Positions 19,987-27,229 of a DNA stretch of 42,719 nt are shown here, in pieces; position 1 is the stretch's first letter; each line of letters starts with the position of its first letter. The notes under the pieces were generated by a model. The model ran no database searches and was not told the origin of the DNA. It saw nothing but the letters and a program-made list of their open reading frames with translations. A program made the position numbers and the translations under genes. Source of the DNA: Ilyobacter polytropus (GTDB lineage Bacteria; Fusobacteriota; Fusobacteriia; Fusobacteriales; Fusobacteriaceae); the NCBI GenBank assembly GCA_003246855.1, contig QKCP01000164.1, forward strand, positions 1 through 42,719, read 5' to 3'.

Positions 19987-21705
19987 TCAAGCCTTTAAAT
20001 TCAAAAAATTAAAGTTGCTTACATCAAAAATTCCCTTGTCAGTCAACCTTATTTCCGGTATAACAGGCAGGGAGATAAATGACAGGGTTAAAAAAGGGTT
20101 GAAATTTCCACTTTCCATGATTTTCACTGTATTTTCATGTAACTTTTTCAGACTTTTTACCACTTCACTTGGACTTTTTTCGGTAATGAGTCCTCCTATT
20201 TCGAGTTTTAATTCTGCTTCTACTCTCCCTTCTACGCACAGGACTATCCCCCCACCTATTCTCCTCAGCTCGTTCAAGGCCATTACTAGATCTACGTCAT
20301 CTACCCCAACTGCTATTACATTATGTGAGTCATGGGATACGCTTACTGCTATAGCACCCTTTTTCAATTTGAAACCTTTAACTATTCCCTTTCCTATATT
20401 GCCACTATTTTTATGCCTTTCCACCACCAGCATCTTCAATTGGTCCCTTTCCACTGATGTTTGAAACTTCCCTCTTTTTGTGCACACCTCTTCTACAACA
20501 TGCCTGGTCTCTAACTTGTTCGGAATTATCTCGATTATATTTGCTTTATCTCCCACATCAATGCTAATACTTATATTCGATTTTGAAATTTCACCAAAGT
20601 TCAATGACGAGATAAGTTTTTTCGGAACAGAACAATAGTTCCCGGATCTTTTTATGCATTCTCCGTTTTCCGCCACCAGCTCCCCGTTTTTGAATACTTT
20701 TTCGATTTTCACCCTCTCCAAGTCTGAAACTATTATAAAGTCGGCCTTGTATCCTGGCGCCACAGCCCCCCTGTCTTTTAAACCGTAGCACTCTGCACTA
20801 TTTAAGGTGGCCATTTGGTAAGCAGTGACAGCCGGAATCCCTGCTTCTATAGCTACCCTCACAGCACAGTCTACGCTACCCTCTTCTATAAGATGGTCCA
20901 AGTGCTTATCATCGGTGCAGATACACAGCCTCCTGCTATTCAAAGGGGTAAGCACCTTGGATAGTTCGCGAATGTTTTTGGCTGCTGTCCCCTCCCTCAT
21001 CATGACATACATCCCTCTCCTAAGTCTCTCTTTTGCCTCCTGAGCGCTTTGACACTCATGGTCCGTCTTAATACCCGCGGAAGCATAGGCGTTCATCTCG
21101 TTTACCCTTAGGCCCGCACCGTGCCCATCCACTAGCTTCCCTCTGTTTATGGATCCTGCTATTTTTCTTAGCATGTCCGGTTCGCAGTTTAGTACCGCAG
21201 GATAGTTCATTACTTCCCCTAACCCCAGTACTCTTTCATGAAGATAAAACTCCTCCAAATCATCTGCTGTGAGAGTTGCTCCCGAGCTCTCAAACTGTGT
21301 AGCCGGAACGCAGGATGGCAGCATCATAAAAATATCTAATACTGTTTTTTCTGAGGAATCCAATATATATTTTATACCCTCTTTCCCAGCTACATTGGCT
21401 ATCTCATGTGGGTCGGCTATAACTGTCGTCACTCCGTGCGGAAGAACTGCATCTGAATATGCTGCCGGCGTTACCAGGGAGGACTCTAGGTGCATGTGGG
21501 AATCTATAAATGATGGTGCTATATATTTCCCGCTACAATCTAACTCTTTTTCCCCACTGTACTCGCCAACCCCAACTATACGGCCATCCTGTATGGCTAC
21601 GTCGCCTCTGAAGATTTCCTGCGTAAACACGTCAACTATGTCGGCATTTTTTAGCACCAGCTGAGCTCTGGTTTTCCCACTTGCTGCTTCTATAAACTTT
21701 TTCAT
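19987..21705 (-). CDS. ade: Adenine deaminase
   Basis: A 572-residue amidohydrolase converting adenine to hypoxanthine and ammonia. DSHMHLESSLVTP near residue 67, IADPHEIANVAG, LGLGEVMNYPAVL, DGHGAGL and CTDDKHLDHLI match the metal and substrate motifs of bacterial Ade, and the length is typical. The C-terminal domain (about 400-572) with AVSVSHDSHNVIAVG is also present. Start ATG 21705 follows GGAGG. An adenine-type purine riboswitch and a terminator hairpin lie directly upstream, after guaB, which independently supports the substrate. Its hypoxanthine would feed IMP and thus GuaB and GuaA, encoded just upstream. Confidence 0.97.
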   Translation of the reverse strand: MKKFIEAASGKTRAQLVLKNADIVDVFTQEIFRGDVAIQDGRIVGVGEYSGEKELDCSGKYIAPSFIDSHMHLESSLVTPAAYSDAVLPHGVTTVIADPHEIANVAGKEGIKYILDSSEKTVLDIFMMLPSCVPATQFESSGATLTADDLEEFYLHERVLGLGEVMNYPAVLNCEPDMLRKIAGSINRGKLVDGHGAGLRVNEMNAYASAGIKTDHECQSAQEAKERLRRGMYVMMREGTAAKNIRELSKVLTPLNSRRLCICTDDKHLDHLIEEGSVDCAVRVAIEAGIPAVTAYQMATLNSAECYGLKDRGAVAPGYKADFIIVSDLERVKIEKVFKNGELVAENGECIKRSGNYCSVPKKLISSLNFGEISKSNISISIDVGDKANIIEIIPNKLETRHVVEEVCTKRGKFQTSVERDQLKMLVVERHKNSGNIGKGIVKGFKLKKGAIAVSVSHDSHNVIAVGVDDVDLVMALNELRRIGGGIVLCVEGRVEAELKLEIGGLITEKSPSEVVKSLKKLHENTVKIMESGNFNPFLTLSFISLPVIPEIRLTDKGIFDVSNFNFLNLKA

Positions 21706-21760: not shown

Positions 21761-21803
21761 CAAAAAATGGTCTCATTTGAGGCGTACCCTCAAATGAGAC
21801 CAT
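21761..21803 (-). terminator. Terminator in the ade leader
   Basis: A perfect 16-bp stem (21767-21782 with 21788-21803), five-base loop, followed on the minus strand by TTTTTTGTTTTTT. Expression platform of the purine riboswitch, and also the first terminator after guaB. Confidence 0.93.
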
Positions 21804-21830
21804 AAACGGAAAAGAGCACACCAACAGTGC

Positions 21831-21897
21831 TCCATAATCAACAGATTTTTGCTCTGTTGGTAGAAACTCTTTTCGCGTATTAAAAAGATTATATGGA
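21831..21897 (-). ncRNA. Adenine-type purine riboswitch aptamer upstream of ade
   Basis: Minus strand. P1 TCCATA (21897-21892) pairs with TATGGA (21836-21831). J1/2 is TAATC, J2/3 is TTTCTACC, P3 is CAACAG / CTGTTG, and J3/1 plus P1 read GATTATG. The nucleotide that sets specificity (position 74) is U, which pairs with adenine, in line with the adenine deaminase downstream. The usual GG (L2) and CC (L3) loop contact is replaced by GC and GC, a compensating change. Confidence 0.92.
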
Positions 21898-21911
21898 TCT
21901 AATATTTTATT

Positions 21912-23375
21912 CTATTTGTGGTAATTAGGAGCTTCTTTTGTGATACTTATATCATGAGGATGGCTCTCTTGAAGCCCTGCTCCGGTTATTTTAACAAATT
22001 TACCGTTGTCTCTCAAATCCGCAATTGTAGCTGTACCGCAGTATCCCATACCGGCTCTAAGCCCTCCGCAAAGCTGGAATATCACATCGGACAGTTTACC
22101 TTTGTAAGGCACTTTCCCTTCTATTCCTTCAGGAACTAGTTTTTTAGCTTCAGCTTCACTTTGGAAATATCTATCTTTACTTCCTCTTTGCATAGCTGCA
22201 AGTGATCCCATACCAACGTATACTTTGAATCTTCTACCATCATAAAGGATCTCTTCCCCAGGCGCTTCCTCAGTTCCTGCTAAAAGTCCGCCTGCCATTA
22301 CACAGTTAGCACCGGCAGCTATAGCCTTTACAACGTCTCCAGAAAGTTTTATTCCTCCATCAGCTATAACGGGTATTCCGTACTGTTTCGCCAATGTGTA
22401 AACATCATTTACAGCTGATATTTGAGGTACTCCTACTCCGGCTACTACCCTTGTAGTACATATAGATCCAGGTCCTACCCCTACTTTTACTGCGTCTGCA
22501 CCAGCTTCTATAAGCTCTCTTGCAGCTTCGGCAGTTACAATGTTCCCGCCTATAACGTCTAGATTAGGGAAGGCATTTTTTATCTGTCTAACTGTTTCAA
22601 TTACACCGTTTGAATGTCCATGTGCAGAATCGACAGTTATAACGTCTGCACCAGCTTTTACAAGTGCTGCTACTCTTTCAATTGTGTCGTTTCCTACGCT
22701 GACAGCAGCCCCAACTCTAAGCCTGCCTTGTGAGTCCTTACAAGCATTAGGAAACTCCTCTATGTTATCTATATCTTTTATAGTTATTAACCCTTTTAAC
22801 TTCCCGTCCTTACCTACAATAGGAAGTTTTTCAATTCTATTTTCAAGAAGTACTTCTTTTGCTTGCTCTAGTGTAGTCCCCTCAGGAGCAGTTATAAGGT
22901 TTTCTTTCGTCATTATCGATTCCACGCTTTTTGAAAGATCTTTCCTGTATTTGAGGTCTCTATTAGTTATTATCCCAACTAGAGTTCCGTCCTCTTCTAC
23001 AACAGGCAGACCGGATATTCTGTAAGTCCCCATTATCTTGTCAGCATCTTCTAAAGTAGAGTTTCTGCTAAGTATTACAGGGTCTGTTATCATTCCGCTT
23101 TCGTTTCTTTTTACCTTGTCTACTTCAGCAGCCTGCTGTTCTATAGACATATTTTTATGGATAAAACCTATCCCACCTTCTCTAGCCAAAGCTATTGCAA
23201 GCTTAGCTTCTGTTACAGTATCCATAGCCGAGCTTATGAACGGTATGTTCATCTCGATATTTTTAGTAAGTTTTGTTTTTAGGCTAACTTCACTTGGAAG
23301 TACATTTGACTTTTGAGGAACTAAAAGTACGTCGTCAAAAGTAATTGCTTCTTTTATTATCTTCCCGTTTAGCAT
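21912..23375 (-). CDS. guaB: IMP dehydrogenase
   Basis: A 487-residue enzyme oxidising IMP to XMP, the first step to GMP. TIM-barrel with an inserted CBS pair (about residues 93-205; [18 protein letters not shown] and [14 protein letters not shown]). Catalytic cysteine lies in [15 protein letters not shown] near residue 305. The flap/active-site segment [18 protein letters not shown] is present. Start ATG 23375 follows AGGAGG. It has its own promoter after the guaA terminator. No terminator precedes the purine riboswitch that begins 15 bases after its stop, so readthrough transcripts would enter the ade leader. Confidence 0.98.
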
Positions 23376-23465: not shown

Positions 23466-25004
23466 TTATTCCCATTCAATAGTTGCTGGTGGTTTTGAAG
23501 AGATATCATAGGTAAGCCTGTTGATACCGTCAACTTCGTTTATAATCCTGTTGGACACTTTTTCCAAGAATTCGTAAGGAAGATGTGACCAAGTTGCAGT
23601 CATAAAGTCAGTTGTGTCGGCACTCCTAAGAACAGCCGTGTACTCGTATGTTCTTTCGTCCCCCATAACACCTACAGATTTGACAGGCAGCAACACCACG
23701 AAAGCCTGGCTTACTTTGTCATAAAGGTCTTCATTTCTAAGCTCCTCTATGAATATGTCGTCTGCTTCTCTTAGAATATCTGCTTTTTCCTTTGTGACTT
23801 CTCCTAGTATCCTGATACCAAGACCTGGCCCAGGGAATGGATGTCTGTCTATCATGTGGTCTGCGATTCCAAGCTCCCTACCTACTCTTCTAACCTCGTC
23901 CTTGAACAGCTCTCTAAGAGGTTCTAGCAGTTCGAATTCCATATTTTCAGGAAGTCCGCCTACATTGTGGTGAGATTTTATAGTTGCAGAAGGTCCTTTA
24001 ACCGACTGGGACTCTATTACGTCAGGGTAGATTGTTCCCTGTGCTAGGAAATCCGCATCCTTAAACCTTTTCTTTTGCTCTTCAAATATCTCTACAAACT
24101 CACGTCCGATTATCTTTCTTTTTTCCTCTGGGTCGCTTACCCCTTTTAGTTTTGAAAGGAATCTCTCTTCGGCGTTTATGCACTCTATATTCATATGGAA
24201 GTGTTCTCCGTAGGCTTCCATTACCTTCTCAGCTTCATTTTTTCTCATAAGTCCTGTATCTATGAAGAAACAGCTAAGCTGGTCTCCTATGGCTTTATGT
24301 ATAAGTACGGCGGCGACAGATGAATCCACCCCACCTGAAAGGGCAAGTATAACTTTTTTGTTCCCTACTTTTTCTCTTATATTCTTCACTGTATCTTCTA
24401 TGTAGTTTGTCATTCTCCAGTTTTTCTCACATTTTGCTATGTTGAACACAAAGTTGCTTAAAAGCTGTTTACCATAAACAGAGTGAGTTACCTCTGGATG
24501 AAACTGAACTGCATATATTTTTCTAGCTTCGTCTGCCACAACAGCAACAGATGAGTCTGTGTGTGCTATTTTTTCAAACCCTGGTGCAAGTTTTGTAACG
24601 TGGTCGGCATGACTCATCCAAACTTGTGTTTTTTCAGGTATACTGTCAAAAATCAATGAATCTTTTTTATCTATAATAAGCTCTGCTTTTCCGAACTCTT
24701 GTTTGTCTGCTCTGGCTACCTCTCCACCCAATAAGTGTGTAGTAAGCTGCATTCCGTAGCATATGCCGAGTACCGGGATCCCAAGTTCATATACCTTTGG
24801 GTCAACTGTAGGTGCATCTTCTAAATAAACAGAAGCAGGCCCCCCTGACAAGATTATCCCATTCGGCTCCATAGCTTTTACCTCTTCTAGGTCTGTAAAG
24901 TAAGGCACTATCTCTGCATATACTCCCATTTCCCTTATCCTTCTAGCTATCAGCTGGTTGTACTGAGAACCGAAGTCAAGTATTATGATGCTTCCTTTTT
25001 TCAT
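23466..25004 (-). CDS. guaA: GMP synthase (glutamine-hydrolysing)
   Basis: A 512-residue enzyme making GMP from XMP, glutamine and ATP. Class I glutamine amidotransferase domain (1-195) with the nucleophile in GICYGMQ near residue 83 and [11 protein letters not shown] pyrophosphatase domain with LSGGVDSSV near 223; C-terminal dimerisation domain ending in the conserved KPPATIEWE. Start ATG 25004 is preceded by GGAGGG at a somewhat long spacing. The leader carries a guanine-type purine riboswitch, which would lower expression when guanine is plentiful. Confidence 0.98.
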
Positions 25005-26862: not shown

Positions 26863-27018
26863 AAAACTTCCCCCTATTATGAAAATTCTTAATTAAATTA
26901 TTATATTCTTAATACAGAGCTTATTTAAAATATAAATTATATATAGGTGTTATTCAAATAATATATTTTTATTAAAGTTGATTTATTGATACAATACTTG
27001 AAAAATGAATACACTTTC

Positions 27019-27192
27019 AGATAGAGGTGCAGAGGGTCAATAGTAAAACTGCAGAGAATGGCAATTCTTTGAAGCAGTATGAAAGGGGCATCTGCCGAAA
27101 GGGAAACTCCAGCCAGGGTTTTTCTTGGGGACCGGGATAATATCCCTGTCACTGTCATTATGTCCATGCCAGAACATAATGGGGGGCTATCA
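27019..27192 (+). ncRNA. Lysine riboswitch upstream of dapF
   Basis: GATAGAGGTGC (27020-27030) opens the aptamer and GGGGGGCTATC (27181-27191) closes it, P1 being GATAG / CTATC. Between them are the lysine-class core elements: AGTA (27042-27045), GAAAGGGGCATCTGCCGAAA (27081-27100) and a long two-arm region. The context (first gene of a lysine/diaminopimelate operon) fits. Lysine should favour the downstream terminator. Confidence 0.93.
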
Positions 27193-27229
27193 GCTTTTGT
27201 GGGCAATTATTTTTACATTTGTATACAAC

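Follow-up and report, generated by a model that had tools for sequence, protein, structure and literature searches.

We have found that a genuine adenine-type riboswitch, judged by its sequence, lies between guaB and ade in Ilyobacter polytropus, and that its expression platform is unlike those of its relatives at the ade and add genes. The locus belongs to a 42,719-nt stretch of contig QKCP01000164.1 (hereafter the window, meaning the whole stretch analysed), and ade appears to be controlled by the riboswitch upstream. As for mechanism, we tentatively propose a transcription-attenuating device that would switch ade ON in response to adenine by means of three competing segments, much as in the trp leader; we give this reading not quite an even chance.

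The minus strand carries, in order of transcription, a promoter-like site, a guanine-type aptamer, guaA, guaB, the adenine-type aptamer, an intrinsic terminator and ade (Table 1). The identities of guaA, guaB and ade are firm, as all three score above the NCBIfam cutoffs. The ade gene is the last minus-strand gene of the run, and its neighbour beyond is on the opposite strand. The stop codon of guaB occupies positions 21914-21912, and P1 of the adenine-type aptamer begins at ~21897. The guaA leader (window 25195-25005, minus strand) has a possible long terminator hairpin 3′ of the guanine-type aptamer, ending in CAGTTTTTTT, which was overlooked by our simple terminator scan. The window also contains a lysine riboswitch aptamer (27014-27197, plus strand, 100.6 bits).

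Table 1. Features of the guaA-guaB-ade locus and of the tandem aptamers compared with it
Feature	Position	Strand	Evidence or remark
ade, adenine deaminase, presumed regulated gene	19987..21705	-	TIGR01178, 652.9 bits, cutoff 472.5
Intrinsic terminator: 16-bp stem, 5-base loop, then TTTTTTGTTTTTT	21767..21803	-	-26.5 to -27.0 kcal/mol
Terminator apex strand, candidate antiterminator partner of linker 21822-21812	21781..21791	-	11 pairs, four G-U
Linker, complementary to P2 3′/P3 5′ strands and to terminator apex	21804..21831	-	
Small hairpin GGAGCAC-UGUUGGU-GUGCUCU, then UUUCCGUUU	21813..21833	-	Folding; weak terminator-like
Purine riboswitch aptamer, adenine type	21815..21916	-	RF00167, 65.1 bits, positions 1-102 of 102
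P1 helix	21897-21892/21836-21831	-	Rfam alignment, folding
P2 helix	21888-21883/21873-21868	-	Rfam alignment, folding
P3 helix	21859-21853/21845-21839	-	Rfam alignment, folding
guaB, IMP dehydrogenase	21912..23375	-	TIGR01302, 648.6 bits, cutoff 481.5
Promoter-like site TTGAGA-17-TAAAAT, TG before -10 (extended -10), inside guaB 3′ end	21988..22016	-	Sequence match only
guaA, GMP synthase	23466..25004	-	NF000848, 833.4 bits, cutoff 400
Purine aptamer, guanine type, upstream of guaA	25097..25195	-	C at specificity position
Promoter-like site of guaA leader, TTGACA-17-TATCAT	25267-25239	-	Sequence match
Tandem adenine-type (U) aptamers L132/L142, upstream of PnrA/BMP-like lipoprotein	G052:C3:142901-143116	-	PF02608 (lipoprotein)

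According to a sequence-only reading of this DNA, a purine aptamer lies between guaB and ade and carries U at its specificity position; all three points hold. The Rfam covariance-model check gave a full-length match to RF00167 (65.1 bits; gathering score 37), the gene identities come from the NCBIfam matches, and the specificity base (position 74; C in the guanine class) is U at 21837, within GAUUAUGG. U at this position marks the adenine class, a rule restated in PMC11477304, and by its type the aptamer is likely to bind adenine. In an alignment of nine aptamers the purine core (J1/2 UAUAA, J2/3 GUUUCUACC and J3/1) is invariant. The loops are variant, with L2 AAUACGC and L3 GCAAAAA replacing AAUAUGG and CCGUAAA; in the L2-L3 kissing interaction L2 GG/L3 CC has become GC/GC, a compensated change that flips one G-C pair. 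Within our phylum set (98 genomes) this swapped-pair variant is found elsewhere only in two tandem adenine-type aptamers of a single genome, G052.

Two strands of the aptamer, GAAAAGAG (21874-21867) and ACCAACAG (21861-21854), are exactly complementary to the linker strands CTGTTGGT (21827-21820) and CTCTTTTC (21816-21809); coordinates were checked base by base. The 16-pair alternative helix claimed earlier is present, and it extends to ~21 pairs through ACG/CGU, GAAAAGAGU/GCUCUUUUC and UACCAACAG/CUGUUGGUG. The further claim of a strong fold destroying P2 and P3 is borne out by the minimum-free-energy fold (-56.7 kcal/mol, z = -8.6), in which this helix stands beside an intact terminator. The aptamer-linker duplex has an energy of -30.4 kcal/mol, compared with a mean of -14.3 (sd 2.9) for shuffled linkers and -27.9 for the best of 1000 shuffles; the helix is thus far from chance. 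In folding without ligand the unfolded-aptamer state lies ~10 kcal/mol below the aptamer state, and therefore the ligand would have to be caught during transcription. The small hairpin can coexist with the bound aptamer.

The terminator begins 29 nt past the aptamer. At equilibrium the full-length terminator prevails in both states, ligand-free and ligand-bound (P 0.93 and 0.96), and forbidding its base costs 10.6 kcal/mol. It could be simply the unconditional end of the guaAB transcript, with the aptamer decayed or serving as a 3′-UTR element and ade expressed from an unrecognised promoter or by leaky readthrough. This would fit a terminator which is among the strongest of the 45 leaders examined, forms in both states and shares no strand with the aptamer. 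We regard it as unlikely, given an aptamer core that is intact, a kissing-loop change that is compensated and a gap between terminator and ade where no promoter is visible; moreover, a linker with 21 pairs to the aptamer would very unlikely arise by chance.

The terminator forms part of P1/P3 in adenine aptamers, and this is what makes them the textbook ON switches. In our family set (61 genomes) adenine-type aptamers precede ade in genera g13 and g14 and add (adenosine deaminase) in genera g2, g3 and g14, and in all 11 other scored leaders of this type the terminator 5′ arm starts at -10 or -11, counted from the aptamer end, inside P3/P1. This is the layout of the Bacillus subtilis pbuE type (transcriptional ON), represented in the family by ade of G052, G053 and G058 and by add of G002 and G003. 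The window leader shares with it an RF00167 aptamer with U, an intrinsic terminator and a purine-degrading gene downstream, but its terminator arm, at +29, overlaps neither the P3/P1 3′ strands nor any other aptamer helix, and its competing helix uses the P2 3′ and P3 5′ strands. With the aptamer locked, the probability of the terminator is 0.00 in the pbuE-layout relatives versus 0.96 at the window leader. The arrangement had been called unusual, and it does differ from all other scored adenine aptamers before ade or add in the family; our scoring missed the add leaders of G053-G060, whose stems are imperfect, and miscalled L120, where by eye the terminators also overlap P1. Adenine aptamers with ON-type terminators precede the family's closest ade genes, which are 43-47% identical. 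None of the other ade loci fetched has guaB beside it. A second sequence with the window leader was not found among the 98 phylum genomes, the genus being represented by one species, and covariation is lacking for this reason.

Separate terminators are the rule for the family's guanine-type aptamers, where they begin 17 to 87 nt downstream. We found this layout combined with an adenine-type aptamer at two loci only, the window (+29) and the tandem pair of G052 (+28); aptamer type and platform type are thus not tied to each other within one family. The window leader has the aptamer, linker and separate downstream terminator of the B. subtilis xpt type (guanine, transcriptional OFF), but it carries U instead of C and has no P1 3′ strand antiterminator, and the terminator arm takes no part in its alternative helix. 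The G052 aptamers resemble it in the U specificity base, L3 GAGCAAAAAUC, the L2 AAUAYGC variant and the terminator position; they differ in being two copies upstream of another gene, each with its own terminator and an xpt-like antiterminator formed by the P1 3′ strand AUGGGUGUAU with AUGCACUCAU. For the second copy our folding model takes the terminator from 0 to about 1 with ligand, and the pair is predicted to be an adenine OFF switch, doubled.

The direction of switching had been left unsettled by the sequence-only reading, and we agree: two overlaps between aptamer, linker and terminator point in opposite directions. One had been suggested earlier, with the competing fold reaching into the terminator, and its core, P1 5′ strand CCAUA matching UAUGG at the terminator base, with AGA/UCU added across a one-base bulge, is real. 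The pairing itself (5 to 8 pairs) is weak, as the terminator is favoured over it by ~7 kcal/mol at equilibrium, and near chance (0.053-0.065, about 5-7% of shuffles as good). In the free state it stands at ~0.98-1.0 until the visible RNA reaches 137/141 and is then displaced as the last bases emerge.

Through this overlap adenine would turn ade OFF. Without adenine the aptamer would unfold into one long antiterminator, the P3 5′ and P2 3′ strands lying on the linker and then the P1 5′ strand (AGA, CCAUA) on UAUGGUCU; with adenine bound, P1 would retain CCAUA and the terminator would close. The nearly complete free-state pairing up to 137/141 argues for such a switch, as does the terminator distance of 29 nt, which is like that of guanine OFF switches and unlike that of adenine ON switches. 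Both structure and model assign an xpt-like OFF platform to the sole other aptamers with the same loop variant, those of G052, and elsewhere an adenine OFF switch has been predicted to occur naturally (PMC9481103). We nevertheless consider an OFF switch improbable at this locus: what the P1 5′ strand takes of the terminator base is only these 5 to 8 bases, bulged and displaced as soon as the base of the stem emerges, adenine shutting off adenine deaminase is hard to rationalise, and all scored ade/add relatives look ON.

The other overlap, absent from the earlier reading, pairs linker 21822-21812 with the apical strand 21791-21781 of the terminator and is in our opinion the better basis for a mechanism. 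It is only marginally above chance, since shuffling the terminator stem gives an equally good pairing in 2% of cases and shuffling the linker in 6%; at chance levels of 5-7% and 2-6%, respectively, neither coupling is secure alone. In folding, the linker:terminator helix dominates the bound state (P 0.94-0.99) as long as the RNA is visible to 21781-21775; in the free state it never appears. A further match, between the guaB 3′ end and the terminator arm (-16.9 kcal/mol), was dropped as 8% of shuffles were as good.

In the trp operon leader pairing 1:2 permits the 3:4 terminator, and 2:3 is the antiterminator. The proposed logic of the window leader is alike, with segment 1 (P2 3′ strand plus P3 5′ strand) held by a ligand-binding aptamer rather than by a ribosome, the linker as segment 2 and the terminator as 3:4. 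Without adenine the linker would invade P2 and P3 (1:2, ~21 pairs) and could not reach the terminator, which would close and leave ade off. With adenine the aptamer would retain segment 1, and the free linker would pair with the emerging apical 5′ arm and loop of the terminator (2:3, 11 pairs), delaying it so that polymerase may read into ade. Both pairings exist, 1:2 far from chance and 2:3 marginal. Against the ON direction are the equilibrium, which the terminator wins in both states, the four G-U pairs of the 2:3 helix, the lack of covariation and the shortcomings of the folding model described below.

We followed the leader with a simple cotranscriptional model that tracks a population of structures and takes its barriers from findpath. 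Among the controls the model gave ON for three adenine ade/add leaders and OFF for four guanine leaders and the second G052 tandem aptamer; with L065, L004 and three Bacillaceae leaders it either proved insensitive or gave the wrong result. For the window leader, modelled from 21907, ligand reduced the terminator at 18 out of 18 ligand settings (nine speed/rate combinations, two binding energies), with 0.91-0.93 in the free state and 0-0.86 in the bound state, the size of the effect depending strongly on speed and rate constants. When 74 nt of guaB-encoded 5′ sequence were added, all runs were trapped in one misfold, which makes the longer model uninformative; in the cell ribosomes may cover this stretch. 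We read this as a lean toward ON, a direction that the relatives and the function of adenine deaminase also favour, and not as proof.

The sequence-only reading had also seen no promoter. Here the present analysis disagrees, as a candidate site was found inside the guaB 3′ end (Table 1), with 10 of 12 consensus matches and a score of 11.8 when rated with a matrix derived from 32 riboswitch promoters of the family (~1% of shuffles equal this); its predicted start is near 21981. In the 48 bases that precede P1 the same matrix gave no hit, nor did it show a promoter in the gap between terminator and ade, where the score is at the shuffle mean (50% of shuffles as good). With no promoter signal in this gap, ade should depend on passing the terminator, and its expression probably relies on readthrough from guaA or from the guaB-internal candidate promoter. 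A switch acting instead on ade translation or on processing of guaB-ade RNA, e.g. by RNase III cutting the long helix, seems very improbable to us. The ~21 pairs of the alternative helix would suit processing, and UUUUCC, once freed, could pair with a GGAAAA that we read in the sequence overlapping the ade Shine-Dalgarno region; that pairing would have to span a strong terminator with six pairs, most of them A-U, and nothing else points to this level of control.

The ON direction makes metabolic sense, with adenine inducing adenine deaminase. The guanine aptamer before guaA is by type an OFF switch, and together the two aptamers would set the operon to ‘guanine scarce AND adenine plentiful’, a state suited to the route adenine to hypoxanthine to IMP to XMP to GMP. 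The combined proposal, in which the ligand withholds aptamer strands, the linker antiterminates and the two aptamers compute ‘adenine AND NOT guanine’, is more doubtful than the switch direction by itself. With its guanine and adenine aptamers the guaA-guaB-ade operon would be a simple natural two-input design.

The adenine switches known from experiment are of the ON type (Mandal and Breaker, 2004), and the ON logic works by burying pieces of the terminator (PMC2258182). An adenine OFF switch in tandem with a T box was predicted, without experimental test, in Clostridium botulinum (PMC9481103); the passages of this survey covered here list tandem guanine pairs and no tandem adenine pairs. Within the open-access literature, no account of an adenine riboswitch preceding ade turned up for this bacterial group. 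If the three-segment ON switch is true, it is a compact natural inversion of the usual OFF layout; if the OFF alternative is true, natural adenine OFF switches, so far merely predicted, become testable.

Other purine aptamers were observed in the course of the analysis. Guanine-type aptamers (L091, L092 and L102, in G011, G003 and G009) lie directly 5′ of a distant ade paralog (34-37% identical), so that the leaders of this paralog carry the ligand type opposite to that of the nearer ade genes. In the genome of the window two further aptamers, L001 and L004 (G000:C94 and C59), are guanine-type and precede an NCS2-like permease (identified by eye) and purL (TIGR01857). One more guanine-type aptamer with a terminator (L002, G000:C102:25416-25517, minus strand) is upstream of a gene seldom associated with this class, that of pyruvate formate-lyase (first 350 residues matched to TIGR01255); the enzyme provides formate for purine synthesis.
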